A stretch of 64,000 nucleotides of DNA from Norana najaformis (Eukaryota > Annelida > Clitellata > Crassiclitellata > Hormogastridae). Position 1 is the first letter of the stretch. Every line of letters starts with the position of its first letter. Made by a program: the position numbers and the translations under genes. The notes beneath the pieces are model-generated. The model was not told the origin of the DNA and did not search any database. It saw nothing but the letters and a program-made list of their open reading frames with translations. Location: NCBI GenBank assembly GCA_964023275.1, contig OZ029916.1:20430064-20494063 (forward strand). The letters run 5' to 3'. Positions 3,490 through 58,740 of this stretch are shown one piece after another.

Positions 3490-4004
3490 ACCAAGTCCGG
3501 AATTTGTGTAAAGATGTAAGGCCGGTTTCTACTGAGTAAAGTTGAAACTCTGAAAATTCATAGAAATTCCCGGGTCGTTTCAGGAAGACGGAAATAGGCG
3601 CATTCGACCACTTACGTTCATAGCTATCATCTGGTAAAATTTAATAAGATTTGGTAACAGTCCCCAAAATCTGACTCGTGTCAACAGTCTATAATATGCA
3701 AGTGCTTTTGATGAATGCACAATAAAGGCCACTTACTTACTTAATTACTACTTAACACTGCTGTATATACCTCGTTGATTTTGCCGTAACCTAGCAATAA
3801 TCCGTACTCATACTGATCAATAGCTATAGTTATAACCAATAGTTATAGTCACTATAACCAGGTATTCATTCCAGCACTATTAATAACCCTTTTTTATTAT
3901 TAACCCTTTATTAAACTTTATTATTAACCTTTATTCATTTTATTTATTTACTTTTATTTAGTTATTACCTTTATTAAGCCTTTACTAATCTTTATTATTA
4001 ACCC
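3490..4004. repeat. intergenic with degenerate TTTATTATTAACC array
   Basis: Positions about 3880-4010 contain a degenerate short tandem array of TTTATT/ATTAACC words. The rest of the stretch shows no gene. Confidence 0.5.
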
Positions 4005-4115
4005 TTTTGCCTATCGATTTTGTTTTGACTGAGCGCCTGTGAATAAGCTGGTTCCTGCGACTTAGCTTTCGTTGGGCGCTGTAGAAATCTCGAGATTACG
4101 ATTACAATTAATATA
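4005..4115 (-). repeat. interspersed repeat family A, copy 1 (partial)
   Basis: This is the reverse complement of the sequence at 21371-21480. Shared words include AAAACAAAATCGATAGGCA, GGCGCTCAGTC and CTCGAGATTTCTACAGCGC. Further copies lie at 42350-42460 and 58511-58740. Longer copies carry GGGTTCGGTTCC, reminiscent of a Pol III B box, so a SINE is likely. Confidence 0.7.
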
Positions 4116-4590: not shown

Positions 4591-7040
4591 ATGAACTTCG
4601 GACTTCTGACTGTGCTACTTGCCTCAACTTTTACGTTGAGTAAGTTTTCAGTTTCTTGATTAAACCTTTGATAGGTTTGACTATGTCAGAAGTGTGTGCC
4701 ATATTGACGGCTGTTTACTGGCCGTGTCTGTTGTCATCCTTAAATTTTTGATCTAGTACAATGAAGTTTGATAAGACGTGGTTTGAAAATTTTTGTTTTC
4801 GGGGTAAGGTAACTCGGGGTCGAACCCGAATCCCCGAAAGTTTTGAAAATACACAACAGTCCGATTTCCCGAAAACAGTTTTATAGAAAGCGGTATAAAT
4901 TCCGAAAACTAGTATGGACTATCTAATCGGCAATAGTAACCGAACGTATAGGGTTTCAGTGTTTCCCCCATGTAATAACATCCCATCCCGTCGTGTAGAC
5001 ATTGACTTTCAGGAAAAAAGCCTAATTCCGCCATACTATGGTTATGTTGTTAATTTTTGGGAAGGTGGGTCGCACTTAGAAAATTGCTTTCGGGGATCCT
5101 GTCGAAATTCGTTTCGGGGATTCCCTGTGCACCCGGTAACTCTGCCTGCCGACAATTTCAACACCGAAATTCAAAGGTTATTGAATTTGATGTGATGAGC
5201 TGAAAGATTTTGAATTGCATTTGTAAAAAGCAGTTTAAGATGTCATCGCCAACAACTGGTAACAGGCACCCGAGTCCAAAATACCATAAGGCTAGTGAAT
5301 GTAATTAAATATATATATGTACCACCTCTTAACAGTACTTATGGCATGAGGGACTGACATGGCGGACCGATAGAAAGCGTGGCTTATCGTTGTTTAGGTC
5401 TGTCGTCATAGGTATGGCCTCAGTAGCCAACCCCGGAATACATCAGGGACCTGCTTATTCCTGTTGCAGGCCAACTGGGTCAACAAATGCTGTTGTTGGC
5501 CCATGGAGGTCTTATAGTTCCATGCTCCCATGTGATGGCACGGATACATCGTTCTCTCCCATGTGTTGGATAGTCCTGGAAATCTTCCTCTGGAAATTTG
5601 AACTCTTCGTTCTCAAATGGCTCAAGAAACATTCTCGGCACATCGTAAGATGCACCTTTTCGGAGCTGTTAGATAGTCATGTCGCAGCGCATTTGGGGTA
5701 TATAAGTTTTTGGATACATATATATGTTTCAGTTAAGAACTTGATTTATTTTAGCATTCGGGTTGAAATGCTATGAATGCAACGTGTGGAAGGCAGGCTA
5801 TGGAAATCTTTGTGACCAGCCACGCATCAGAGATAATTGTTATGGCTGCATGAAAACAGAGACAACAATATTCATGGGTTACTACAAGAACACTCCAAGA
5901 TGTAAGAATTTCTATGATGTTTTTAGTTATGCAGTGAGAAAGTGTTTCTTTTGCAATGTGGACTAAGTCTTGTGAAACCTTTTTTCAACAACTGCCCCTT
6001 TAGCTACTTTACTTCTATTGCTGTGATTTGGATTAAGTTAGTTTTCCTGGGTATATTTTGGAAGGGCAGAGGGCAAAGAAGTGGCACTGCCATTTAGATG
6101 AACTGCTTCAAAATTATCTCTTACTTTCTGTGTGGCATGATAGATCTAAAGCCAGGCATCTCCAGGTAAAATTATGTCATCCAGTAACTATAGCCGAGGC
6201 ATTTTTACAATTCCTTGCAGCAGAAAAATGAGAAATTTGCATGGTATGTTTGCTTTGTTACATTTGGGCATCGCCAGCTTAGCACTTTAAGCGCCTGGTT
6301 GATGGGCAAGTTTTAGCGTCCTGATTAGATTCAGGGACGATCTGGGCCAGACAATGCATTTAGTAATGTAATGTACTCATGTTTCTAGAATTCCTGTAGC
6401 ACCTTTCTTAGAATCTCACAAAGCAGTGTCATAAGTCATAATCTTGGTGTCCAGTCAGATTGTCCTGTTCATTTTCTACTGTTGAAATGATTGATGAAAT
6501 GACTGTCCAACAAATGCACGCATCCATGTAGAAATCCATGTAGAAAACCTTAACTGGTCCTTATGCTACACCTTTGCAACTAAATGATGTTTCCAAAGGT
6601 AGGGAATGGCCTCCTGCTTATGTGGGTAGTTGATGTCCTATTGAAGGACTCTAAATGTAAACGGTTTTCTATAGCAACTGTATGGCCTCGACCCTGCTCG
6701 AGTGAGATGCTTCACTACCACTGCACGTTTGAATGGGCGCCACGCCACTTGAGGTTCCCATGCACGGACCATGCTAGCCCAAGATTCAGATTTCTTAAAT
6801 AAACCACCTTTGATTTTATTATTATTTTTAGATTCGACGATAATTTCACGTATCTGCGCCAACAGCCGAACAATTGCCTTCAGCCACGAGTGCCAATACT
6901 ACGAAACTGTCGATGGCCACAGTCGACGATGCTACTGTGACACGGACCTCTGCAACGGTGCATGGCGTTCTGCCTCTGCAGCTGCTTTTCCTCTGCTTAT
7001 CATCTCGTCCGCCTTGATTACATTTTGGAACCTTCTCTAG
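4591..7040 (+). CDS. LU-domain (Ly6/uPAR, three-finger) GPI-anchored surface protein, gene 1
   Basis: Three coding exons join cleanly at phase 1: 4591-4639 (ATG, signal peptide, donor GTAAGT), 5755-5901 (acceptor TTTTAG, donor GTAAGA) and 6832-7040 (acceptor TTTTTAG, stop TAG). The product is 134 aa. Residues 1-19 are a hydrophobic signal peptide. The LU domain starts at LKCYEC (C22, C25) and ends in CYCDTDLCN, the family signature, with ten cysteines in total (five potential disulfides). A hydrophobic tail with no charged residues (about residues 113-134) follows a small-residue stretch, as expected for GPI attachment. Family members are extracellular, membrane-tethered modulators of receptors, channels or junctions; the ligand cannot be told here. 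The fold is shared with three-finger toxins, but the GPI-type tail argues for an endogenous surface protein. A paralogue with identical intron phases lies 8 kb downstream. Exon joins are inferred from splice consensus, not transcripts. Confidence 0.87.
4801..5140 (+). repeat. interspersed repeat family D, copy 1 (intron 1 of LU gene 1)
   Basis: About 330 bp closely resembles the reverse complement of 30237-30560. Shared words include CGGACTGTTGTGTATTTTC, CCATCTAATCGGCAATAGTA (or complement) and the TCGTGTAGACATTGACTTTC segment. The open frame at 4914-5195 lies inside the repeat and is not a gene. Confidence 0.75.
6670..6808 (+). repeat. interspersed repeat family B, copy 1 (intron 2 of LU gene 1)
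   Basis: The consensus words are CTATAGC..CTGTATGGCCTCGACCCTGCTC, TTTGAATGGGCGCCACGCC and GCTAGCCCAAGATTCA. Other copies are at 10083-10215 (-), 14317-14640 (+, interrupted), 31536-31590 (-, partial) and 37535-37710 (+). It is non-coding and probably a SINE or MITE. It ends only about 25 bases before the acceptor of exon 3. Confidence 0.75.
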
Positions 7041-10215: not shown

Positions 10216-10416
10216 CCATGTACATCTACATTTAAGAAAGCTAATAGTGCTTAAGTAGACTAGAGGTGGCAGTACTGTTTACTTTAATTAGTACCGATCA
10301 GTATGTTTGGCTAAAAGAGGTTTTTTATCTTATGGGCCATTCCGTGTGAGATCAACCAGACCCTCCCACCTTCAACCTTAGATTTGGCTGAAAATTTCTC
10401 CATGTACCTGTCCACC

Positions 10417-11061
10417 ATTTTGAGGCACAAATACAAAATTTTATTATGATATGTCAAAATTTGGTTTAGATATACCATCTTAAAGTGAGGTGGGGTAGGC
10501 GAAAATTGGTATCCGATTTCGCGAAATGTTCTCTGAGGCCATATTCAACATGAAATAACTCCAGAAGTAGAGGGGGGTAGAGGCATGAGGTTTTCACTGT
10601 TGTATTCAGAAAGTGACTGGTGACCTAATGAGCCTATTACAATGACTGTGCCTTGAGTAGAGACTTTAGAGGACAGCTGTCAATATGCCATCTCAGAAAT
10701 CGCAAACTGTATTTTCTTCAGTTTGCCTCACCAATATGACGAAAAGCAGCTGCAAATTTTTTTTAATCTTTTCATATTCTGATTTAGCAAGTAATGGGCT
10801 CCTACTGGATGTATTTTACTTTGATGTTTATTTACAAATGAAATCATACTGACATGCTAAACTTGGTCAAACTGATGAACGGGGGGTCAACTTCACCAGC
10901 TGATATTGGGAAACTGACAACTGGGATCTACCTGAACTTCATATTTCTGAAAAGTGCATGCATTGACCTTTCTGGTGATACAAATTTGATTTTGGTGCTC
11001 AGAAGCAATCAGGAGCAATGCTTTGTTGAATATAGCTCTATTTTCGATGTCGCGACTAACC
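10417..11061 (+). repeat. left arm of a long inverted repeat
   Basis: This 645-bp arm pairs with 12573-13216. Read against the reverse complement of the right arm, it begins ATTTTGAGGCACAAAT and ends CGCGACTAACC. In the parts I compared there are only a few differences: a run of six G against five near 10877, G/A near 10690 and C/T near 10740. It contains a 75-codon frame (10854-11081) without recognisable homology; the one-base indel breaks that frame in the other arm. Confidence 0.93.
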
Positions 11062-12572
11062 GTTTTGGTGCAACAAAGTAATTCTAAGTACTTAAGAACT
11101 TTTTAGAAGTATGTATCAAAGAAGTAAACAAGCACAAAATTACAAGCATACAGTGTAAACTGTAGAAGTCTAGAGCTACTGATCAATAGTGTTTGTGTGC
11201 ACTGTGTCCAACTTAGTTCAGTTACACGCGAAATATCACCGAAATTCCATACTAGATCATGTACTTGTTTTCATATCAGACACTGAAGACTGTATTTTTT
11301 AAATAAATTTAAAAATAGACCACAAGTGCTGCAGTTCTATACTGCACGATGAGTTATTATTTAAAACTAACTGGAAGTGTTAAAACAAATTATCATCTAT
11401 TCAACAACTCTTAACATCTGTTCAAAATGCCTCAAGTACAGATCACATGTTCTGCCCAAAATAATCCCAGTAAATCATAAAATAAAAACTAAATTTTAAC
11501 ATCCTGACCAAGATAGTGATAAACAAATTATCATCTACTTAACAATCTCTTCAAAATTGCTGACTAATCACATGTCCAGTTTTAAAAACCACAGATAATG
11601 TAACGGACAAACCCTGGATATGTTTCCTGAGGGTGGCTGGTCCGAACATACACCAGAATGACCTAACCTGTGCTCTTCTGGGGTTGGTCCACAGGGCAAG
11701 GCTCCCATGGTCTATCAGGAGGCTGAGCAACAAAGTCTTCACGTTTCTATCGTTTATTGTTTGCAACTTAAAACTGCAGTTATAACAACTGAAGTACAGT
11801 TATGCCAGTGACTTACCTACTACTCAACTAAACCACTAAACTATTTCGAGTACTCAACTCAACGCGGCCGACTAACTAGCAAAATGAAAACTTCGGAGTC
11901 GAACTCGAACACTGCGACTACTGCTGACGAACTGCTCTGCTGATGGTACTGCGACCTCAAACTCGATGGACGGCTCTGCCGACGCTAATGCTCTTTTATA
12001 GGCATCCTTAGAGGCTTAGAGACATTAGAGGCTAATTAGCATGTTGGAGGCTAATTAGCATAAAGGCATTAGAGGCTTAGAGACATTAGAGGCTAATTAG
12101 CATGTTAGAGACTAATTAGCATAAAGGCTTAAACGCATTAGAGGCTAATTAGCATGTCAGAGGCTAATTCGAATAAGGGCCTAGAGGCTTAGAGATGCTA
12201 GAGGCATTAGAGGCTAATTAGCATGTTAGAGGCTTTAGAGGCTTAGAGGTTAATTAGCATGTTAGAGGCTAATTAGCATGTTAGAGGCTAATTAGCATAA
12301 AGACTTAAAGGCATTGGGGGAAAATATGATTTCTTCACAATAAAAATTAATAGAATAGAGAGAAATTTATATTAAATCATGACCTAGACACAAAACATCT
12401 TAAGCAGGTTAATGAATAATATTAGAAAATAGCATGTGCTAGTTAATTTGATTGCAGACTTTGATTTCAATACATATTCAAATCTAAACAAATAGCAAGT
12501 TTTATAGAGGTACACATAACAGTGAAAAATGAATAATCACATAATTAACAGCCAAAACTAGACATGGATTCT
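11062..12572. other. loop between the inverted-repeat arms
   Basis: About 1.5 kb of spacer. Most is AT-rich without a gene; 12003-12312 is a tandem array described separately. Confidence 0.8.
12003..12312 (+). repeat. degenerate tandem array of GTTAGAGGCTAATTAGCAT units
   Basis: An irregular array of 19-bp and longer units built from TTAGAGG and CTAATTAGCAT. TAATTAGC occurs about nine times. The core GCTAATTAGC is a perfect palindrome. Confidence 0.85.
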
Positions 12573-13216
12573 GGTTAGTCGCGACATCGAAAATAGAGCT
12601 ATATTCAACAAAGCATTGCTCCTGATTGCTTCTGAGCACCAAAATCAAATTTGTATCACCAGAAAGGTCAATGCATGCACTTTTCAGAAATATGAAGTTC
12701 AGGTAGATCCCAGTTGTCAGTTTCCCAATATCAGCTGGTGAAGTTGACCCCCGTTCATCAGTTTGACCAAGTTTAGCATGTCAGTATGATTTCATTTGTA
12801 AATAAACATCAAAGTAAAATACATCCAGTAGGAGCCCATTACTTGCTAAATCAGAATATGAAAAGATTAAAAAAAATTTGCAGCTGCTTTTCATCATATT
12901 GGTGAGGCAAACTGAAGAAAATACAGTTTGTGATTTCTGAGATGGCATATTGACAGCTGTCCTCTAAAGTCTCTACTCAAGGCACAGTCATTGTAATAGG
13001 CTCATTAGGTCACCAGTCACTTTCTGAATACAACAGTGAAAACCTCATGCCTCTACCCCCCTCTACTTCTGGAGTTATTTCATGTTGAATATGGCCTCAG
13101 AGAACATTTCGCGAAATCGGATACCAATTTTCGCCTACCCCACCTCACTTTAAGATGGTATATCTAAACCAAATTTTGACATATCATAATAAAATTTTGT
13201 ATTTGTGCCTCAAAAT
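12573..13216 (-). repeat. right arm of the long inverted repeat
   Basis: This 644-bp arm is the reverse complement of 10417-11061. Beyond both arm ends the similarity stops abruptly (11062 and 12572 differ, as do 10416 and 13217). Confidence 0.93.
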
Positions 13217-13359
13217 TTGGCTAAAAGAGGTTTTTATCTTATGTGTAACAATTTGCATTGTATACTTTCTATATGCAAGAACTGGTCTTTTTAGAGGTTT
13301 AAATGCCCTTACAATTTATAGAATTTTAAAGCCCAGTGAATTCGGAAAATCAGTGGAGT

Positions 13360-13482
13360 GTAACTCTGCCACTGCCTTTATTCGGGTAGTGCCAGTCCCA
13401 GCCTGGATAAGGGAGGAGGGCGACGTCAACGGCCTTTGATGCCGTAAGATGTCGTTAAACGTTGGAACTACTACTCAGTGGA
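13360..13482 (+). repeat. interspersed repeat family C, copy 1
   Basis: Shared words are AACTCTGCCACTGCCTTTAT, GTAGTGCCAGTCCC, CTGGATAAGGGAGGAGGGCG and GGCCTTTGATG. Copies also lie at 49250-49370 and 49385-49500 (both -), and 55183-55305 and 55385-55470 (+). Confidence 0.75.
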
Positions 13483-13531
13483 GTACCCAAAACAGTGGTG
13501 ACCCGGTGACTGAGAAACTTATATATTTCAG

Positions 13532-13555
13532 TGATAGAGAGAGAGAGAGAGAGAG
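13532..13555. repeat. (GA)n microsatellite
   Basis: An uninterrupted run of GA dinucleotides. Confidence 0.9.
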
Positions 13556-14316
13556 GTGGGGGACTAGGTCAGTTCAACTGCGGAGGTGAAACTCCATGGG
13601 CCTACTGTACCACAATGTGAATTGTAGGCCTATCGTGTCTAACGTTTTTCATTGGCACAATCTATTGATCTTTGAGCCACATGCCCTCACTGTCTCAGTA
13701 TGTGATCACAATTGAAATTTTGGGTACTGGTGATAAAAATGTCTTTAAAAGTTTAATTTTGAGCCCTCTTTTTGGCCTCTTGAACAGTAACGCCCTGGGC
13801 GACCGCACCACTCGCCCCCTTAGCTACGCTTCTGGTTGCCGACTTCGTTGTGCATTTCTGTGCTTTGCAAGAGCCATTATCAAATTTTAGTAGTTGTGTA
13901 ACATATAAATTGTACACCGTGAATAATAGGCCTGCTATCTTGAATGAGCTCGTTGATCAATGCTGACGAGTGCTGTTCGAAAGCCGGCAATCGTGACCAC
14001 ATTTATATACCGCCGTTTCAGAAAAATCCTAAGATCTGCTTGCGAACTGGGAACACAAGATCACGTTCATCATCAGTCACCATGGGTTCAGCGCCCGTAG
14101 GTGAAGATCACGTTACACGATCGAAACGAGACAGATGAAGGACGTGCGCTGTGTACTCGTTTAGTTCGAGTATACAGCAAGCGACTTAAATGCAAAAGTT
14201 CGCATTTCTCAGTCGCGTCTTTTGACCAGAGTACAGTGAGTAAATTTGGAGTGGACACGGAGCACCCGAGGTTACATTCCATTGGACCCAGATTGTGTAA
14301 AACCACGTTTTTGTAT

Positions 14317-14640
14317 AGCTACTGAATGGCCTCGACCCTGCTCATTTTTCATTGAATTAATCGGGTGATATCCTTCACCACTGCTGCCTTTTTGAATGGG
14401 TGCCACGCAGTGCGGGCTCCAGGATTGCTTTCGATGGGGGAAGAGCATTTACAGTGGGGGGCGCCGCTTTCTTTCAGTCCACCATGCATGGGTCTGGTCT
14501 GAGGGGCCCCGGCACCTAACCAGGAGGGGCGCGGGGACGAACCGCCCCACGCCTTTAGCTAAATCCACCGCTGTTGCTACCCCATTTGAAGTCCCTGTGT
14601 AACGACCATGTTAGTTCGAGATTCAAATCTTTGAAATAAG
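14317..14640 (+). repeat. interspersed repeat family B, copy 3, split by an insertion
   Basis: The left half (to about 14409, GTGCCACGCAG) and right half (from about 14583, GAAGTCCCTGTGTAACGACC) match the family. The roughly 170 bases between, G+C-rich, are absent from the other copies. Confidence 0.65.
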
Positions 14641-15155
14641 ACGCGATCGGTATCTCCGAACCTCGCCTCTAGTGGTAAGTTACGGCCCTAGTGTGGACCA
14701 AACTAAGGTGGCTATCAGATTTATGATCATATTCTATACATAGTGCTCATTTAAAATTTGTTATCGTTGAAAATTCGATATGAATTGGTATTACGAAGAC
14801 AGCCTATAGTTATTTTGCTAGCACGATAGATATTTACTGAATGTGCAAATCCTTAATTCCCAATTGCTCAGCGCCATCGATTGATGTTTAGCCATTATAT
14901 AGTGGCGCTTAATAAATGCAGAAATAATAATAATTATTGTTGTTGTTCTTATTATTATTATTATAAACTTAAACGAACGCTTGTGCTGCTTATTTAGCTA
15001 TAGCGCAACATAAATAAAATTTTGTGGTTGGGAACGTTTGGTGCGCACCAGTTACGGCTCAGGTAGAAAATCATTCGAGATAACGCTTACCTGTGTTTAT
15101 TAGTGTCATTTGATTAGCCGAAACGAGCAGTTTCGGAAAGAAAAACATTATAAAA

Positions 15156-18544: not shown

Positions 18545-21370
18545 TAAGCATTGGACGTGGGTGTTTGGCTTTAGTTTTACGTGGAACCAAACCAACAGAT
18601 GCAGAGGCCGTCCTTGGGCCAAGTCTGTAATGTGTAATGTATCGACATGGACATGCATATCTTGTATTTGAACTGTACATAAGCCAACTCGGATTCAAGA
18701 TGTTCTTAGGCATGCTAGAACTGTGAGAGGTGAATTGATCTTTAAACAAATTACCATATACAGTTTAACTTTGTTCACTGTAGAAGGTGATCAAGGTGTT
18801 TTTGTATCCCATCTTCAGTGCTGTAACCTGTTCGTTCACAAAATGTTAAAATGTTGGCTGAAACTCTAGGCAGGGTAAGCAGTGACTTTGTAAACACCTT
18901 TTCCAAGTAGCTAGTGGCTGTCATTCTCAGAATTTTGCTCATTTAATTCTTCCTACCAACCACACTGATTACTTTCGTTAATTTAGAAGTACCTACATGC
19001 GCCAAGTTATGTAGATTTGTCAGATTATTTGATTAAAACTGATGGAATTATTTGAAAAAGAATGAAAGAGTGTAAGGCAACTGTAATAACTATGGTGATT
19101 TTTGATGGATGCACACTGCAGAGAGCACAGAGGCAAATTACTATGGTACATGTATTGTGTTTGCCTTTTCCTGTTGTGTCTGGGTTTCATGTCATATGAA
19201 ATTTACAGTTTGTTTTCAAGCCATGTCACACATAAGGAAATTGCTGTTGTCTTGTTTGTGCTTCAGCCAAAAGCTGTTTCAACCCACCTGGACAATGCCT
19301 CTGATGACTATATTTGAGAGACATTTAACAACCGATTACCTTAGCTATCAGGATGCATATGTTCACTCTGACCAAGTAAATGTAGCATTCTCAGGATGTA
19401 CTAACTTGCCTCAATGTTTTTCACGACTTACTTTCAGTTTCCTTGACAAGAATTTACTTCTTGTAGTGGTTGAACCATGATGCTTTAACTGGATTGCGTT
19501 CACCCCTGGGCCATAATTCAAAACTGTTGCAAAATCGACTTGATTTAAAAATAGTACTATTATACTATACTGTTGTTTGAATTGGCTAATGTAAAAACAG
19601 TCACAGTCTTCACTGGATGATATTGTTACTATCACGACTAATAAGAAAGATTATTACTAGTTATATACTAGATGTTTAAGTATGTACAATTAAGCAGGTA
19701 TATGTATTGCTTTCAGTAAGCATATCTGTTATTGCCAAGAACATTAATTATCAACTATGCATACACAATTGCATACGTACTATCTAACTGTCCTTATGCA
19801 CAAGAATTTTTTCAAATAACTGTAGTTTTTTAACATTTAAACATTTCTGAAAATTAGATTTAGTATCAATGATTATAATTACTTCTTTCCAAATGAACTG
19901 GCTCCTTGGGATGTCATCAAAGTTGGAGGAGAGTGATCTTTAAAAATGCAGCTGAACCATGACAAAATTCTTCAGAAATAACATATATTTGACAATTTCT
20001 TGCAGAGTAATGCCACAGATATTTTGCCACTGAGCATGATGCCTTGGCACCTCATCTTGCAGAGTATCTCCAGAGTGAATTGCTTCATGGGAAAAATCAC
20101 ACATCAGTAGCCACCATGTGGCCCTCCAGGTTCCCATAAGATTATGGACTGGCCAGCTGTCCACATACAGTCTCCGGTTCATGGCTAATACGGCCTTCCA
20201 CAGTCAAACTTGCAGTTTGAACCTCGTCTTGCAGTTACTCAGGATGTTCTGTTTCAAATGCCCAGCAACTAAGGGTTTGATGTAATCTATGCATTCTACC
20301 CCCACCCTTGTTATAACACACGGTGATATAACGCAAATTCAAGTACAACACGGTGGCGGCCATGGATCCCAAGTTTACCTATGCATGCATACGTGATATT
20401 TGGAAGAAAAACTCATAGTGTCAAAATGGTAACGACTGTCCTGAAGGAAGTGCTGATCTTCTATACTCGTTCGCCATGCTGATAGTGGGTCAAATGTTTG
20501 TGTAGTACACCAATAAGCAAGATTCTTACTATTTATATACTAGATGTTTAAGTATGTACAGTTAAGCAGGTATATGTATTGCTTTCAATAAGCATAATAT
20601 CCAAATGTTTGCGTAGTACACCAAGATAGCTGCTATAAAGCATCAATATCATATTTCTGTAAGACTCGCTGGTACAGAACTCTCAGATCCACGGTACATA
20701 AGAGATTTTTATTCTACTGACTGCACAGTTGCATCACCAAAGTTATTTAAGTCTCCAAAGACAACAGCTAGACCTAAAATGCTAGACAAATTCAGAGTAA
20801 TAAAATTTTCTTTTCTTTAGAAAAATAAAAAATTTCAGGAAAAAGGATAGCCTATTCAGAGTTCAAGCTGGTGCAATCGTAAGACATTGAAATGACGAAA
20901 CCCAGGCAACTATTAGTACAGATCTTAGAATTAATGAAGCCAAAATGTCTGTATTACATATTGTTCTTTTAAATAAAAGCTAATTTTTAAGGTGCTGTTT
21001 CTGTACTTATTTATCTAAAATATTTATTCCACATAAATTTATCTATGGCACTGCATATGTGCAGCCAGAAGTTCATGGCACCTGAGAGCGGAAATCAAAA
21101 CAAAGAATAAAAAGCATTTAATAAAATTTATTACAAATCGCTTTCACTTCAAGATACAATTTTGAATTAAATCCAGTTTTCCAGCTCTGGCAGCCTCCAT
21201 TCCAAAAGGCAATTCGTAATTTTCTCATAACCCTTTACAAGTCCAGTGACGCACATGGCAAAAAGCTGAAAGACCAGTTTTTCATGGCAAACCTGCATTC
21301 TTATGCTCTGATACACCCAGTACAACCTGCAATTACACAGCTACATAAATATATATAATGAAATTTTGAT
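18545..21370. other. 3' flank of LU gene 2 and intergenic sequence
   Basis: No gene was recognised. A local duplication of ~80 bp is present: 19640-19725 against 20516-20596, sharing TATATACTAGATGTTTAAGT and AAGCAGGTATATGTATTGCT. CCAAATGTTTG.GTAGTACACCAA also occurs twice near 20490 and 20603. The 123-codon frame at 19109-19480 has no motif. Confidence 0.5.
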
Positions 21371-21700
21371 AATCGTAATCTCGAGATTTCTACAGCGCCC
21401 AATGAAAGCTAAGTTGTGGGAACCAGCTTATTCACAGGCGCTCAGTCAAAACAAAATCGATAGGCATAAGGGTTCGGTTCCAGGTCAAGATCCAGGAGTC
21501 AGGTAGTCAGATGGCTACAGTGGATGATGTTTGAAATTGAAGCAAGAAGAGAGATAAGTGGAAGAGGAAGAATCCAGATAAGATTTTTGGAAAAGAAGTG
21601 TTTTCAGTCTTGAGTGAAAGACCTGCGCAGAAACTGAAAGAGGTGAAGTGTTGGTGAGTTTGTATGATGGACCAGATAACTGTCGTAATTCTGAACACCT
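21371..21700 (+). repeat. interspersed repeat family A, copy 2 (long copy)
   Basis: Starts ATCGTAATCTCGAGATTTCT, continues through GGGTTCGGTTCCAGGTCAAG, and then a purine-rich tail (AGAAGAGAGATAAG) shared with 58511-58740. Confidence 0.75.
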
Positions 21701-29200: not shown

Positions 29201-30699
29201 CTTCAATCTTTCAGTTATGATTCCAATTAACCTTACTAAAGAAACAGAAAAGGCTTGACAAATGCAGAAAATTCAGTAAACTTTTATTAACATATTTATA
29301 ATCATAATTGCACACAGAGGTAGTACTTCCTTAAGACAAACTACAGACAGATGCTCCAGATCTCACAACACAAAACCACCCGCAAAGACAATGGTTTTCA
29401 CCACGAAATAAAATGGACATCTTTCAACACAAAGCCCTCAGGGGCCAACACAGATCAGGATGGATGAAGCATAACTGCCCAAGTGCACTCAGGGATCAAT
29501 CAGGACAACCAAAAGACAGGATGAATGATGTTGCCAGGCACTTTGAGACAATGTTGTGGTCAGTGCTGCTGACAGCTGAACTCATCTCAAAAATGGCTGG
29601 ACTGATACTTGTATGCAATCAAAAAAGCTCATAATGGATAAGAAATAATACATGTCAGAACAGACTCTATGGAGTGAAACTTCTGATACTCAATTGTTGC
29701 CTAGGAAAGAGAAACTGGTTCAAGGCAGCTACAGGATCAAGCCAATTTTCTCAACTACTAAATGGATACCCTTTGAAACAAAAGATAACTCAGAAATTGG
29801 TCAATAGTTGGCCATGCCAATAACATCAGGGACACATTAACCATTTCACTGTTTTAGTTACAATTCCAAACATTCACCATGCTACAGACACATTTACCTT
29901 TCTGTATGCTCGCTTGATGTCTTCTCTGGAACACTGTTTTGCAAGTCCAAGTACTTGGTAAAGACTCTGACCAGAGGCACTTGACACAGAGCATACCAAA
30001 ATAACAGTCAAGTGCAGAGCTGAACAAGTATCACTTTATAACTAGATACTTTAAGGATTAATTAAATTTAAGATCCATGGCACGAAATAATCTGTAAAGT
30101 TTCAACAAGGCATCGAATCCAATATCTACTAGTCAAGATTTGCCATACATGATTTGCTGATTTCTGCAAAACAATTTATCTGCAAGCCAATAGCATTATT
30201 ATGAAGTGCATGGCTTCTGAGATAATTCACAGGTGCATAGCGAATTCCTGAAACGAATTTCGACCAGATCCCCAAAATCAATTTTGTAACAAAGACCCAG
30301 ATTCCCGAAAATTAAGAAGATAACGTTTGCAAGGCGGAATTAGAACTTTTTCCTGAAAGTCAATGTCTACACGACGGGATGGGATACTATTACATGACGG
30401 AAACACTGAACTCCTACACGTTCGGCTACTATTGCCGATTAGATGGTCCACAAGCCTACTAGCTTTCGGGATTTCGACTGCTTTCTAAAAAAAACTGTTT
30501 TCGGGAATCGGACTGTTGTGTATTTTCAGCGCTTTCGGGGATTCGGGACGACCCCTAATTCACACTCGTGTATTGGCGTACTGCCCCTCCCCACAAGCAT
30601 TTCCTGCACTTGATAGCGGGTTAAGATGCTTCAGGCTGAAAGCAGAATGGCTACACTGTTAAATACTTACGACATGCTACGGGCTCTTGAGCTGTTCAT
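23226..30699 (-). CDS. DNAJC5: cysteine-string protein, DnaJ homologue subfamily C member 5
   Basis: Six coding exons give a 216-aa protein: 30699-30671, 29979-29898, 28278-28222, 25788-25636, 23956-23825 and 23423-23226. The N-terminus [20 protein letters not shown] keeps the basic-plus-serine PKA-type site of CSPs. The J domain spans about residues 15-85, with HPD at 43-45, the same numbers as in mammals. The linker carries [20 protein letters not shown]. The cysteine string (about 105-136) has 11-12 palmitoylatable cysteines, including CCCFCCFC and CCGKC. The tail is acidic and Ser/Pro-rich. CSP is a synaptic-vesicle co-chaperone that recruits Hsc70 to SNAP-25 and other presynaptic clients. 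All joins keep frame. Intron 3 uses a GC donor (AAG|GCAAGA); the others are GT-AG. The phase-2 first intron explains why exon 1 has only 29 coding bases. OSER1 lies upstream on the opposite strand. Confidence 0.94.
26105..26165 (+). repeat. short repeat shared with 31185-31235
   Basis: Both read GAAACTTCTA.......CCGGTGTCTAA or a close variant. The copy lies in a CSP intron; the copy at 31185 is at the end of a possible LINE 3' fragment. Confidence 0.4.
27690..27775 (+). repeat. repeat shared with 41830-41905
   Basis: Both contain GTTCGAAGCCCGATC followed by an A/T-rich GAC..TT.GAAAGA.....ACAA tail. GTTCGAAGCCC looks like a Pol III B box, so it may be a SINE. It is in intron 3 of CSP. Confidence 0.5.
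28610..28905 (-). pseudogene. LINE reverse-transcriptase fragment (intron 2 of CSP)
   Basis: The minus-strand frame reads [19 protein letters not shown], then [19 protein letters not shown]. The first has the FADD catalytic box of non-LTR reverse transcriptases; the second is the following NxxKT motif. The frame is open for ~100 codons, so the insertion is fairly recent, but it is only a piece. The fragment at 53926-54870 belongs to a related family (KEYDMKINIKKAEVM). Confidence 0.85.
30237..30560 (-). repeat. interspersed repeat family D, copy 2 (intron 1 of CSP)
   Basis: Reverse-complement match to 4801-5140 over most of its length; see that entry for the shared words. It lies about 110 bases downstream of CSP exon 1. 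Confidence 0.75.
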
Positions 30700-31240: not shown

Positions 31241-31535
31241 TTTCAAGTTTACGATTGTTTTGCAATTTTGGCGTTAATTAATTTCAACACAATTACCCAA
31301 ACTTAAGTATGAAGTAGAAAAAAGAATGTAATATTTGGTAAAATAACTGTAGGCCTAACAGTAATATCTTAAACTCTTAAACGCTGGATTTCAAGTACTT
31401 TGTAGACCTGCTCCGATCATGCTCGAAGTGTACTAGCAGTATAAAACGTTTCGACTTGGAACAATTTAATTAATAGCGTGCATCGCAGGCCTATCGATGA
31501 GCAAAGTGAAGTCGTGGAACGCAGTTTGTTTGCAG

Positions 31536-31590
31536 TATCAATTCATTGAAAAATGACAAGGGTCGACGCCATAAGGTAGCTTTAGAAAAC
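31536..31590 (-). repeat. interspersed repeat family B, partial copy 4
   Basis: Carries TTCATTGAAAAATGACAAGG and GTCGACGCCATAAGGTAGC, matching the 5' end of the family. Confidence 0.6.
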
Positions 31591-32989
31591 ATGTATATTA
31601 CATGAATTGCATACCATTTGACTACGTCGCCGATTTAGAAAAACATATAATACGATTTGCTAACAGAAAAAAAACAATTTTTACATGGTAATAAACTAAA
31701 CATTCCGCGGTATAAGACCGCGGAGGTTATCAGTTTAACATAAGATCGAATTGAATAATATAAGTTCTCTGATCAATCCAAATCCCATGCTACACCTCGC
31801 AACTGGTGCAAACTCAGACCTCAATTCCGCAAATTCTGCGCTTTGTCACTCGTCCTGTCATTATAAAAAGTGAAACTATAAGTACAAATGCATTTGATAT
31901 TGCCCTTCTACCAAAGTTCAAAAGTGCACACACGACCAAACGACAGAGTATCTCGGGGAGGCTCGAGCTCGTCGTTTGTCCAGCATCATTTTCTCAAAGC
32001 CCTTTATCTATCTTATTCATAATCGTAAATTCAAAAATTTGAGACTTTTAAAGCGAAACATAAATGGCCTTATAGTAACATATGAGATTGGCCTATTTAC
32101 TTACTTAAATCTTCTTTGCCAATATAAAATCTTTGGTATGTGCGCCATTGTTGTTGCCATTTTGGCAGTGACTAAAGATCTTTGGCAGTGACTTAACAAT
32201 TTTGAAGTGAGTAAATAAACAGGGAATTTCTATATTATCGTTATGTGTTTATAGTTGCAAACATTTTTTTACATAATAGTAACATTATTACTATCAACTG
32301 ACACAAAACATACAAAAAATAGTTAGGTACTATCGAAATTTGTTGAAGCAGATGCATTTTAATGTTTGAGTTTGAAGTGAATAATTCCTGAGTATACGGT
32401 AGAAGAGCTAGAGAATCTAGGCATACAGAGATAGTTTGAGTGAACTGGCGGAGGGTTTTGGGGATGGTAATTCCGTATTTTAGCGTTGTCTCAATTACTG
32501 TGTTGTGTTAGCTGCCCAAATTGTGTTCAGAATTCGGTTTAAATTATTTTAGTATGATAATGTTTAAAAAATAAAACAAGTTATTAAAAAGATACTTTTA
32601 AATATCCATGCAATATATGATGACTTGTACGGTCAGTTGTCTCACCGTGAATCGGTTGTTCGGTAATTTGTCGTTTTAGCGTCTCACATTAATTAAGAGG
32701 TGTATCTATAGCGGTTTAGTGTCCAAAATTCATTGCATCGTTTACCTTTATAGTTGTCAAATCCCAAATAGCATACTTCAAACAAAGTCGCAAATGAGCT
32801 TCACTGAGTCTTAAATGACCATAAACGTTTAAATTATTGAGAACAAGCATAAAGAAATAAATGTTTAAATGGTAATCAGCAAATACTGGAAGTTAAACTT
32901 TGTATTACTTTTCATTCTCACATGAAATTATAACCAAGTGGAAGTTATATTTGAGTGCAGTTACATTTTAGGTCGAGGATGCCGTAACA

Positions 32990-33690: not shown

Positions 33691-35587
<1,897 letters not shown>

Positions 35588-37110: not shown

Positions 37111-37534
37111 TATGACATGGAATTTTAACAACAGATGTGTATTATCTGCTTTTAGCTTTTTCACTATTTTTATAACCATTTTAGTAGACAGCTTAATGCT
37201 ATTCCTCCAAATCAACTGGGTCCTTGGCCAGGTATCCGCCCTTGACTGGATGATTGATACAACTGATCACAGATGTCGGCCTACATGTAACTGTGCACTG
37301 ATTTGTTACAGTGGTTGTCCATGGTCCAGCGTCGATCTCGGGCGCTTCTGTCTGTGACAGTAATTAAAGGTTATTCTGAACTAAACGTAACAAAACAAAA
37401 AACTGAAAACTTTTATGCCTGCCTGGACTCCCATCTCCCGCTAGGAACTTGGCCGTATAGCTGTGCATCATTCGCTCTTAGACTATGGACTTAGCCGGGG
37501 CCATCTACTGTACATGTAAATGTAGGCTTATATG

Positions 37535-37710
37535 TTTTTCTATAGCGACCGTATGGCATCGGCCCTGGTCATTTTTCAGCTGAATTGATCAGGTAAAATC
37601 CTTCACTACCGCTGCTAGTTTGAATGGGCGCCACGCCAATTAAGGTCCCCGTTTACGGACCGAGCTGGCCCAAGAATCAAATCTCTGAAATAAGCCACGA
37701 CCGGAACGCG
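37535..37710 (+). repeat. interspersed repeat family B, copy 5
   Basis: The fullest copy: CTATAGCGACCGTATGGC, TTTGAATGGGCGCCACGCC and GGCCCAAGAATCAAATCTC. About 160 bp in length. Confidence 0.8.
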
Positions 37711-41519: not shown

Positions 41520-42345
41520 TAACGACGAAGGTGGTTTTCTGAGCCGGCCTGCGGGGCTAATCGACCGAGATTCGAATCCCCACAAGGGGAAGGGAAAATG
41601 GGTTCTTCCGGCCTGCAAAACATCTCGAAGGCAAGAAGGATACCGTGGTAGGAGAGGACGGTCGACAGAATATTATGGGTATGTGTCTTAAAGTGAAGAC
41701 CACGGCAGTCTATAACCTTAACGTGGATTAGAGTGAGAAATAGACAAAAGAAGGAGATTGTTATTAAATTAACGATAATTAGGCCTAGTATAAGATCGTA
41801 TTAAGTTGTCAGTGCGAGTTACAGCTGCGCTGCAAATCGGGCGAGTCTACGGTTCGAAGCCCGATCGATTGACAATTCGAAAGACAATTTCTACTATTAA
41901 TTTTTCTAATGAAGAAAGCGTGAACATTTTCGGCCTCTTGATTAGATACCGAAATGCTATTCCACACGCACAGACCAACCACCCGAAAGGCCAGATCAGT
42001 TGTCTTATAGTTGCTGGCACAAAAACACTTATTAACGGTCCAAGGGCTACAAGATGTTGTGAAACACTGGACACGCGAAGACATCGACAAACTGCGATGA
42101 GCGCAGTGGCATGCCGATGTGTGTCACCTGCAGATGAGTTGTGCGCAGCAGCATCGTGTGCATTCATGCAGACAGCTGCCTCTACAAGAAGGCAACCTTT
42201 GAATTTGATGCGCTCGCTGATCCCCAGCCATGGATGCACTGAAGCTGGTCTTGTACCACACATGTTGTGTGGTCGAACTCTTTATTCGAACGGTCAGTCG
42301 AAAAGCGGCGTTGATGACCACCCGAAGGCGAATGATACTGCGTTC
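41520..42345. other. intergenic with SINE-like pieces
   Basis: Contains B-box-like GAGATTCGAATCCCC (about 41569) and GTTCGAAGCCCGATC (about 41851, shared with 27720). The 183-codon plus frame and a 138-codon minus frame overlap each other here and neither has a motif, so neither is called as a gene. Confidence 0.4.
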
Positions 42346-42349
42346 TGGC

Positions 42350-42462
42350 AAAAGTAATCGTAATCGTAATCGTAAACTTGAAAATTCTACAACGCTCAAA
42401 GGAAGCTAAGTCGCAGGAACCAGCTTATTTACAGGCGCAATGTAGTCAAAACAAAATCGATC
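42350..42462 (+). repeat. interspersed repeat family A, copy 3 (partial)
   Basis: CGTAATCGTAATCGTAAAC, GGAACCAGCTTATTTACAGG and AAAACAAAATCGAT match the family. Confidence 0.7.
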
Positions 42463-46309: not shown

Positions 46310-46717
46310 TATTATTGTTTTTTTTATTTTAATATTAAACGGGTAAAAACATTAATATTAATAATATATATTATACTGAATAACAATAATATTATTATTA
46401 TATATATAATACTGATAATAATATAATAATATATTAATGATAATAATAAATCAATAATAATTATAATATAATAAAAAATATTATTATTGTTATATATATT
46501 ATATTACTAATAATATAATAATAATATATTAATAATAATATAATATAAAAAATTATTATTATAATATTTTATTAATATTATATTATCATAATAATAATAA
46601 TATTATTATTTTTATATTATTATATCATTATAATAATATAATTATCATTAATATTATTATATTATAATATTATTATTATTATCAATTTTATTATTTTTAT
46701 TATAGAATAACAATTAT

Positions 46718-47455: not shown

Positions 47456-48160
47456 CTATGGAGGAAATGTTAGTTGTTTGTTGTCCAAAGATAGACACCG
47501 AATGTCAAGTGGGAGACTATTCCTGCAGAGGGCAGGGCCGACACAGGAAACAGCGCGATGTTGACGTGAAGATGGGACCAGAAGTTCATGGCGAGTAGAG
47601 GAGCGCAGCGCCTCCCGGCCGCTGAGAGCTCGAACGGACTGGAACAGTTCACAGACGTACTCCGGAGCAGTTCCGGCAAGCGAAGACCTTGCGAAGAGTA
47701 AAATCTTGAAATTTAATCCTATCCTGAATAGGTAGCCAGTGAAGTGTGTCTTTAATGTGGTGGGAAATGTGAGAATAAGTATACTTAGCAGGTTAGCAAC
47801 CAGTCGAGCTGCGCAGTTAAATACCGACTGTATTTGACGAATACGGATGGATGGAAGACCGACGAGAATGGAATTAGCATAATCCAGACGATTGATGACA
47901 AAGGAGTGGAGAAGAGCAGAGGCAGAGGAGAATGGTAGGTATCGATCGGATCTGCCGAAGATGATGGCATAAAAGGTTTTACAGAGAAAGTTCACCTGTT
48001 CAGACAATGAGAGCTCGCCGTGGACTAGCACGTCCAGATCTTGTGCGGTTCGCGGAGATGTGAAATCAGGGTATAGTGATGCGAAGTCGGCGAAGCCTGA
48101 CGAGTGCCGATCCAGAGGAATTGAGTTTTTGATGAGTTAAACCGGAGGCGGTTAGATGAT
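47456..48160 (-). pseudogene. CR1-like LINE, 3' part of reverse transcriptase
   Basis: Reading on the minus strand: NRLRFNSSKTQFLWIGTRQ near 48150, then a long open frame with SEQVNFLCKTFYA, LLHSFVINRLDYANSILVGL, FNCAARLV and a tail NSLPLDIRCLSL. This order (SKT.F.WLGTRQ, HSFV.SRLDYCN, AARL) is that of CR1/jockey-clade reverse transcriptases. The catalytic core is missing and a frameshift separates the first part. Confidence 0.85.
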
Positions 48161-48650: not shown

Positions 48651-48689
48651 AATTTGTTATAAATCCCAAATGCCTAAGGTTTATGACTC

Positions 48690-49185
48690 CGTGGTTTTGG
48701 GGCGACTGAGCCGAAAATTTGCAGTATACGGACTAATGAGCCGCATACTGCAAATCTTAGTATACCATGCATGACAGCCCGAATATATGCCAGAATCGAG
48801 CATGTTTTCAGAACGCTCAGTTTTGTCTCCAGCTTTATGGCTTTGCTTTTCCAGATTTTATCCATAGGTTTCAATGTTGCTGTCGCCTTTGCAATTCTGA
48901 CTAGTAGGCCTACTTCTTTCCTGCTGTCCAAGTCATACGTCATATTACATCCAAGGTATGTAAACTTTTCCACATTTTTCAACTGAATGCCGTTTAAGAC
49001 CATCTTCTTTGTTAAATTCTTTTGGCCAAATGCCATTGTTTTTGTTTCGTCAAAATTCATGTCCTCGGTAAGGCCAAATCTCTTTCCTTATTCGTTCAAC
49101 GTTTGTTCTGTGTGCTCCAATCGTTGTTCGTCCTCTCCAGTCACGAGGTCAACATCGTCAGTAAATGTCCTCTTGCTTGCACATA
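48690..49185 (-). pseudogene. LINE reverse-transcriptase fragment
   Basis: Minus-strand reading: FTDDVDLVTGEDEQRLEHTE with the (Y/F).DD box, then FDETKTMAFGQKNL, KNVEKFTYLGCNMTYD, and VLKTCSILAYI. One stop separates the first two segments. Part of it recurs at 49790-49880. Confidence 0.8.
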
Positions 49186-49249
49186 GGGCCTACATAGAGA
49201 GCAACGTTCACATATGGAAGTCATAAAAAATGAGACAAAATTGTTTATA

Positions 49250-49370
49250 TGTAGTTCCGCAGTTTAACGACAGCTTATGGCATCAAAGGCCGTTGCCCTC
49301 CTCCTTTACCCAGGCTTGGGACTGGCACTGCCCCCATGCAAACAAGGCAGTGGCGGAGTTATTGTATTAT
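49250..49370 (-). repeat. interspersed repeat family C, copy 2
   Basis: GTAGTTCCGCAGTTTAACGA, GGCATCAAAGGCCGTTGCC and AGGCAGTGGCGGAGTT, reverse complement of the 13360 copy. Confidence 0.8.
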
Positions 49371-49384
49371 TATGTAACGTTATT

Positions 49385-49500
49385 ATATGTAGTAGTTCCT
49401 CAGTTTAATATAGTAGTTCCTCAGTTTAACGACAGCTTATGGCATCAAAGGCCGTTGCCGTCGCCCTCCTCCTTTATTTAGTCTTGGGACTGGCACTTTT
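49385..49500 (-). repeat. interspersed repeat family C, copy 3
   Basis: Direct neighbour of copy 2, with a repeated GTAGTTCCTCAGTTTAA at its left end. Confidence 0.8.
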
Positions 49501-49873
49501 TAATATAACGTCAAAACAATATTATATGGCGATATTTAGACTTTTAAAAGGATGTTCAAGGAATACGCGTGAATATGAGTCGATAACTTTATTACAAATC
49601 GTTTGCGTATTTATAGTAAATTAATCAATGAACGCGTAATTTTGTTATTTATAATGGAATCGCTATTATTTATGGACAAGGCGTAGGCCTATACGCGACG
49701 ATTTAATAGCCATTGAGGTGGTTACCTGTATGAAAATTGAGGATATATCTGAGGCAGGGAATGCCGAAGGCGCTAAGCTTAAGGCCATAATATCTCTTTC
49801 TTTCTTCGTTAAGCGTTTGTTCGACTTCTCCAATATGGTCTGTATCGTCAGCAAAATGTCCTCTTGCTTGCAC

Positions 49874-49907
<34 letters not shown>

Positions 49908-50315
49908 ATAATAATGAAAATAATAATATTATTATTATAATATACCAATAGTAATGATAATAATAATATTATTATAATATTATTATATAATAATAATAGA
50001 GAGCAACGTTCATATATAAGAACAGATAAAAAAAGTTGTTTATATAACGTCAAAACAATATTATAAGGCGATATTTAGACTTTTAAAAGGGTGTTCAAGG
50101 AATACGGAAATATGAGCCTATTACTTTACTACTAATCGTTTGAGTATTTATAGTAAATTAATCAATGAATGAGGAATTTTGTAATTTAGTGGAATCACTA
50201 TTATCTACGGACAGAGGAGTAGGCCTATATATACGCGACGATTTAAAAGCCAGTAGGCTACCTGTATGAAAATTGAGGATATCTGAGACAGTGAATGCCG
50301 AAGGCGCTAAGTCCC
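49500..50315 (+). repeat. local tandem duplication of a ~280-bp unit
   Basis: 49500-49785 and 50040-50312 are about 85-90% alike by eye. Shared words include AACGTCAAAACAATATTATA, GCGATATTTAGACTTTTAAA and CCTGTATGAAAATTGAGGAT. The sequence between holds a second piece of the 49.1-kb LINE and an (AAT)n tract. The minus-strand frame 50158-50598 overlaps the second unit and is not recognised. Confidence 0.85.
49876..49997. repeat. (AAT)n tract
   Basis: Mixed AAT/ATT trinucleotides. Confidence 0.9.
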
Positions 50316-53925: not shown

Positions 53926-54870
53926 TAATGGATGCGCTGAAGCAAATATCGAAAGAATATGATATGAAGATCAATATAAAGAAAGCAGAGGTGATGAGAA
54001 TGAGCAGATATGGAGGATAAAGAATGACTGTTGTCATTAGTGGTACAAAAACTGAGTAAGTCCATCAGTTCTGTTATCTTGGAAGCATGATATCAGTTCT
54101 GTTATCTTGGAAGCATGATATCAGTTCTGTTATCTTGGAAGCATGATATCAGTTCTGTTATCTTGGAAGCATGATATCAGTTCTGTTATCTTGGAAGCAT
54201 GATAGCAGACGACTGCAAATGCCTTACGGAGATCAACAGAAGAACAGCAATGGGCAAAGAAGCATCTTATAAGACAGGAGAGTTACCCTGCAGAGGAAAT
54301 CTGAATTTGAACTTAAAGAAAGAATGCTGAAAAATCTCATATGGAGTTTAACGCTGTATGGATCCGAGCCAAGACTAGTAAGACATTTGTTAACACGCCA
54401 TATGTCCATCGGCTGAGCGAGGAATCGTAGGCGAAAGGACTATTGGAAAAAGAGAAATTTGGAGCGTCCCATGGAGGGTTTGAAATGTACATATGGAGAA
54501 AACTGGTTAAAATCAGCTGGAAAGGTCATAGGACAAAAGGGGAGGTGCTGTGCTTGATGCAAGAAGAAAGACCACTAGTGAATACAATATAGAGGAGACA
54601 AATGAAATGGATCGGTCACATACTTCTTGAAAATTCTGTCCTGAAGACAGTAGGCCTATGCCCTACTTGAAGAAAGAATTGAGAGAAAGAAAGCCGCACG
54701 AAGACCAAGAACTATAGCCTATAATATGCTGTTGGACTGGATGATGGGTAAAGGCAGCAGACGGGGGCTACAAAGAACTTCAGAAAATGGCACAGAACAG
54801 AGAAGAATGGCGTCGTTGAATTCCTGGACCTGGCTGCCTGAGGACAGAACAATGAAGATGCGCAGTTGGG
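53926..54870 (+). pseudogene. LINE, 3' part of reverse transcriptase and C-terminus
   Basis: Frames in order: MDALKQISKEYDMKINIKKA, then a CYLGSMI motif, NRRTAMGKEAS, MKWIGHILLENS and ARRPRTIAYNMLLDWM ending EQRRMA. This order (KTK.M, F.YLGS.I, R...A, RR.KW.GH.LR, RGRP+......W, R..WR) is typical of LINEs with this C-terminal layout. Stops and frameshifts show it is dead. It belongs to the same family as 28610-28905. Confidence 0.85.
54065..54204 (+). repeat. five perfect copies of a 28-bp tandem repeat
   Basis: Units start at 54065, 54093, 54121, 54149 and 54177, each beginning TCAGTTCTGTTATCTTGGAA. The unit is the LINE's own SVILEA/CYLGSM coding segment, so the array arose inside the dead element. 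Confidence 0.97.
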
Positions 54871-55182: not shown

Positions 55183-55305
55183 AAACTCCGCCACTGCCTT
55201 GTTTAGGGGTAGTGCCAGTCCCAAGACTGGATAAAGGAGGAGGGCGACGGCAACGGCCTTTGATGTCATAAGCAGTCGTTAATCATTGGAACTACTACTA
55301 CTATG
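55183..55305 (+). repeat. interspersed repeat family C, copy 4
   Basis: AAACTCCGCCACTGCCTTGT, GTAGTGCCAGTCCCAAGAC and GGAGGAGGGCGACGGCAACG. Confidence 0.8.
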
Positions 55306-58510: not shown

Positions 58511-58740
58511 GTAATCGTAATCGTTATCGTAATTCCGAGATTTGTACAGCGCTCAACGAAAGCCACGTCGCGGGGACCACTGTATTCACAGGCGCTCAGG
58601 CAAAACAAAATTGATAAGCCAAAGGGTTCGGTTCCAGGTCAAGATCTAAAAGTCAGACGGAGAGACAGCGTGGCAGCAGCTATGGAGTGGTGTTTGGGGT
58701 TGGAGAGGAGAGAGAGAGATAAGAGGAAAAGGGGTGTATA
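58511..58740 (+). repeat. interspersed repeat family A, copy 4
   Basis: CTGTAATCGTAATCG, AGGCGCTCAGGCAAAACAAA, GGGTTCGGTTCCAGGTCAAG and a GAGAGAGAGATAAG tail, matching 21371-21620. Confidence 0.8.

Follow-up and report, generated by a model that had tools for sequence, protein, structure and literature searches.

The window, by which we mean the whole stretch of DNA analysed, comprises 64,000 bases without any N and has a GC content of 39.5%. Judging from its microsatellites and dispersed short repeats, it probably stems from an animal genome. At 10417–13216 it carries a long inverted repeat; the features in and around it are the following:

10306–10334, plus strand: left copy of a bracketing direct repeat, 29 bp, TTTGGCTAAAAGAGGTTTTTTATCTTATG
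10335–10416, plus strand: asymmetric left end of 82 bp between the direct repeat and the left arm
10417–11061, plus strand: left arm of the inverted repeat, 645 bp, from the self-alignment
11062–11598, unstranded: left part of the loop, A+T-rich (GC 0.311, 4 CpG), no recognised coding
11599–12339, minus strand: block resembling a solo LTR, 741 bp (GC 0.433, 20 CpG)
12007–12312, unstranded: tandem array, TRF periods 61, 52, 36, 28 and 19
12344–12572, unstranded: right part of the loop, A+T-rich (GC 0.262, 0 CpG), no recognised coding
12573–13216, minus strand: right arm of the inverted repeat, 644 bp, from the self-alignment
13216–13243, plus strand: right copy of the bracketing direct repeat, 28 bp, the sequence of the left copy minus one T

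Self-alignment of the window showed that the left arm and the reverse complement of the right arm are identical in 642 of 645 columns (99.535%, E = 0). The same pair of arms emerged from a repeat search, split into two gapless blocks (469 and 180 nt), and 1511 nt separate the inner ends. An inverted repeat of about 645 bp with a 1.5-kb loop, arms near-identical in reverse complement and abrupt ends on both sides had been described in the initial annotation. Its outer coordinates turned out to be exact, the loop measures 1511 bp, the arm identity is far from the level below 90% at which the description would fail, and the self-alignment confirms the abrupt ends. The statement that the arms do not resemble the other repeat families of the window also holds at a blastn word size of 11: further copies of an arm were not detected within the 64 kb at E-values up to 1e-3, nor in a search at up to 1e-8.

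The three differences between the arms comprise two substitutions (10702, G/A; 10740, C/T) and a change of one base in the length of the G run at 10881–10886. At both substitutions the left arm has a CpG where the right arm reads CpA or TpG. In total, the left arm contains 10 CpG dinucleotides and the right arm 8. Only about 20 of the 645 arm bases lie within a CpG, and we estimate by hand a probability of approximately 0.001 that both substitutions would fall there by chance. Loss of CpG is what a young copy under methylation should show first, and the substitutions fit deamination if the change ran from CpG to CpA or TpG. Because of the 99.5% identity, the data support a recent origin or a recent homogenisation of the arms, in agreement with the earlier proposal of recent formation or gene conversion.

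The window contains further repeats. A family of dispersed repeats is found at 4000–4110, 21370–21567, 42354–42461 and 58511–58732 with 76–95% identity between copies. The segments 4816–5133 and 30232–30555 form an inverted pair of about 320 bp with 83% identity and presumably represent an older repeat that is present twice. Likewise, 49497–49777 and 50036–50311 form a direct pair of about 280 bp with 85% identity. At 54064–54208 a 28-bp unit is repeated 5.2 times with 99% matches, a minisatellite of young appearance.

At its outer edges the inverted repeat is bracketed by a direct repeat, the two copies of which match with a single indel in a T run. The right copy abuts the right arm, base 13216 being common to both, whereas the left copy ends 82 bp short of the left arm. 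When we compared random pairs of stretches of equal length from the window, the local alignment score of 24 was reached by 2 of 2874 pairs, both of which overlap the very same pair of copies. The next-best unrelated random pairs scored 23 and then 20 and both involve A+T-rich simple repeats near 46700; the bracketing direct repeat is not of this kind. Standard short target duplications are not readable at the ends of the arms themselves. Immediately to the left of the inverted repeat, segment 10079–10234 belongs to another family of dispersed short repeats (also at 6652–6807, 37517–37698, 31531–31603 and 14309–14408; 75–83% identity). Just to its right, 13361–13475 is a member of a second such family (also at 49244–49361, 49405–49497 and 55184–55299; 79–91% identity).

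The 82 bp between the left direct-repeat copy and the left arm read GGGCCATTCCGTGTGA... at their outer side; the first G of this sequence, at 10334, still belongs to the direct repeat as its final base. The GC content of this segment is 0.50 as compared to 0.38 for the arm. An inverted partner could not be detected in the region 13217–15000: the inverse local score was 9, while 300 random 82-mers from the forward strand gave a mean of 9.05 and a maximum of 21. No other match to the segment was found in the window (blastn, E 1e-3), and its first 16 bases occur a single time there when up to three mismatches are allowed. The bracketed unit thus extends from about 10335 to 13216, and the inverted repeat reaches its right edge and stops short of its left edge.

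We then assessed the coding content of the unit. In the left arm, an open frame at 10842–11078 comprises 79 aa, 75 of them from the first ATG, and ends 17 bp past the arm. In the right arm the corresponding frame runs for 92 aa, but the indel in the G run leaves it without an ATG. The observation that the left arm alone keeps a frame of 75 codons is therefore literally right. This frame is not special: it has no Pfam match up to an E-value of 1, and the window contains 54 ATG frames that are 75 codons or longer. In 20 mono-nucleotide shuffles the mean number of such frames was 12.45 (range 9–20). Between 10000 and 14500, 34 frames reach 45 aa or more, and 10 of these were scanned against Pfam, again with E-values up to 1. 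Nine of the ten had no match, including two mutually overlapping frames of the loop at 11554–11799 and the minus-strand frame 12505–12780, which enters the right part of the loop. In the left part of the loop, the scan covered these two frames and the one that enters from the left arm. The tenth, 13089–13436, matched only a bacteriocin model (E = 0.17; 12.6 bits, with a cut-off of 27). A credible match was not found among these 10 of 34 frames, and the idea of coding arms was rejected.

Elsewhere in the window, the open frame at 34691–35587 (plus strand, 298 codons) appears by eye to be part of a real gene and has no Pfam match up to an E-value of 0.1. Two minus-strand frames look by eye like reverse-transcriptase remnants: 48674–49087, which matches only DUF6451 (E 0.0027, below the cut-off), and 47456–48136, which has no Pfam match. 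The sub-threshold match of 41794–42357 (plus strand) to Kp4 (E 0.00035, scoring 21.1 bits where the cut-off is 27.8) is probably due to chance. Neither Rfam matches at gathering scores nor tRNA genes were detected in the window.

At the RNA level, the plus strand of 10417–13216 is predicted to fold with a minimum free energy of -1535.8 kcal/mol, as compared to -641.7 to -774.2 kcal/mol for five stretches of 2800 bp elsewhere in the window. In this predicted fold 643 of the 645 bases of the left arm pair into the right arm, which bears out, as a prediction, the suggestion that a transcript across the locus would form a double-stranded hairpin of about 640 bp. The low energy is a plain consequence of any long inverted repeat.

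About half of the 1511-bp loop is taken up by the block at 11599–12339, which differs in composition from the A+T-rich sequence on both sides. Read on the minus strand it starts with TGTGAAG and ends with GTTACA, and ATAA flanks it on either side. On the same strand a TATAAAA starts at 12000 (offset 339 of 741 in the block) and an AATAAA at 11758 (offset 581 of 741); as short motifs, both are putative signals. Solo LTRs are characterised by TG...CA ends, a short flanking duplication of 4–6 bp and a TATA box followed by a polyadenylation signal on one strand. As a sole criterion, TG...CA ends plus a duplication would be weak: the loop contains three combinations of TGT...ACA with ATAA, against a mean of 1.375 and a maximum of 5 in 200 shuffles. 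On account of the order of the signals and the step in composition we nevertheless consider it quite likely that the block represents the solo LTR of a retrotransposon nested in the element. It resembles solo LTRs of LTR retrotransposons in its TG...CA ends, the flanking ATAA and the succession of TATA and AATAAA on one strand, and it differs in that neither an adjoining internal region nor a second copy is present in the window.

Immediately upstream of this block's TATA box lies the tandem array at 12007–12312. It holds seven perfect GCTAATTAGC palindromes, where 0.15 would be expected by chance, and each of them contains TAATTA, which we take to be a homeodomain-type core. The array thus lies where the enhancer repeats of a U3 region would be located, and a U3 array appears the more likely reading. 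An interpretation as an internal repeat of the foldback type is the less likely one, since the array sits between LTR-like ends and upstream of a TATA box.

The sharp and near-identical arms, the bracketing direct repeat and the middle part without recognised genes make a mobile-element insertion of a known kind the likely origin of the locus. More specifically, we think that it is probably a recent, or recently homogenised, insertion that would work like a non-autonomous DNA element of the foldback type with long terminal inverted repeats (TIRs). Long near-identical inverted arms are present, as in such elements. Against a TIR element stands the terminal symmetry that defines a TIR transposon, which fails at the outer 82 bp, so that inverted repeats do not occupy both outer ends. 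Tandem repeats are also missing inside the arms, where TRF found only 1.9 copies of a 21-bp unit (10434–10473); these are not present in every foldback element. That the window contains no second copy of the arms likewise counts against a TIR element, as does the lack of a readable short target duplication at the arm ends. Because the tips proved asymmetric when tested and the length of the target duplication is either unreadable or too long, we liken the unit to foldback-type elements and file it in no superfamily. Exact-match searches of viral contigs with patterns of left end, arm and array were negative, and so was a search of prokaryotic genome contigs with a left-end pattern; both results carry little weight, the host not being expected in either collection. 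Short sequence terms had no match in a literature search. Helitron, Polinton and DIRS identities were dropped on what we take to be the features of these groups.

For a foldback-type insertion the following course of events can be envisaged. A transposase encoded elsewhere would recognise the ends of the repeat and move the unit, and the near-identity of the arms would stem from recent insertion or from gene conversion between them. A retrotransposon may have landed in the element and left the solo LTR behind. At the right end the outer ~82 bp kept at the left are missing, with a 28-bp copy of the left flank in their place. In what would be the most economical account, the true target duplication is short and lies directly next to the left end, made up of the final few bases of ...TTTTTATCTTATG, and the right tip was lost and replaced, in the course of repair, by a short patch of left-flank sequence. 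A literature search for templated filler at transposon ends turned up no paper covering five of the six terms. If the right tip was lost at this locus, dispersed copies would be expected to have both tips GGGCCATTCC... and a short duplication of fixed length.

The locus, with its unequal edge, could also have arisen if template switching during replication (MMBIR/FoSTeS) had duplicated the left arm locally in inverted orientation. After the loop, the fork would have run backwards along the left arm, switched to the left flank for 28 bp and finally moved into the right flank. This accounts for the exact coincidence of the end of the right arm with the start of the left-flank copy, with one shared junction base, and for the presence of the 82 bp on one side only. 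However, at least three switches would be needed, and for two 645-bp arms and a 1.5-kb loop lying between copies of a 28/29-bp direct repeat an insertion is the simpler explanation. We regard template switching as unlikely. Alternatively, the bracketing repeat could be an unusually long target duplication of 28/29 bp around an element with unequal ends. We know of no DNA-transposon superfamily in which this combination occurs, and an element family with naturally unequal ends, one tip extending ~82 bp beyond the inverted repeat, together with such a duplication seems improbable.

We further considered a dedicated hairpin-RNA (hpRNA) locus that is selected to produce siRNAs silencing a target with homology to the arms. 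The predicted duplex of about 640 bp would suit such a function, and there is precedent in Drosophila simulans, where loci of this type are known to suppress selfish genes (PMC10317233). However, the arm frames tested had no Pfam match, leaving no coding target visible, and the insertion-type edges account for the structure without selection. The direct repeat and the LTR-like block, neither of which figured in the initial annotation, point to a mobile-element insertion instead, and a dedicated hpRNA locus is very improbable. Production of Dicer-dependent siRNAs of 21–23 nt from the arms is possible, though speculative.

An assembly artefact, either a haplotig in reverse orientation or a chimeric fold-back read, is just as improbable: only the near-identity of the arms speaks for it, while the arms differ at CpG sites, both outer flanks share an insertion-like direct repeat and the loop is 1511 bp long. 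Artefacts from fold-back reads have little or no loop, and this source was dropped for that reason. A retrotransposed hairpin transcript, which the long direct repeat would fit, was dropped as well: reverse transcription would have had to pass through a 645-bp duplex, and an added A tail is missing.

When inverted repeats are long and near-perfect, they constitute fragile sites, provide material from which hairpin RNAs can arise and may seed chromosomal inversions. If the present copy is as young as its arms suggest, it could mark an element that was recently active in the genome. The copy itself looks ordinary, and the unequal edge looks like a small puzzle.

Comparing the unit with known systems, we find that it shares with the Drosophila hpRNA loci an inverted repeat and a transcript that forms a long duplex, which is predicted here; it differs from them in its insertion-type edges and in that no target was seen (PMC10317233). 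Tm1 of root-knot nematodes is by its title a Mutator/Foldback family (PMC3169594); the likeness to our unit concerns this classification and places our unit in no superfamily. Among the systems compared here, the closest precedent is the foldback element Tetris of Drosophila virilis (PMC4079207). Tetris has long TIRs with tandem repeats of ~220 bp within them and a variable middle without apparent coding capacity, its target duplications are 8–10 bp long, an autonomous copy was not found, and membership in Mutator was suggested by its authors (PMC4079207). In our unit the tandem array is instead located in the loop, within the LTR-like block; the two ends of the unit differ in length by 82 bp, and the direct repeat around it measures 28/29 bp. 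What both have in common are the long inverted repeats, a middle part that does not appear to code for protein and the lack of an observed autonomous partner.
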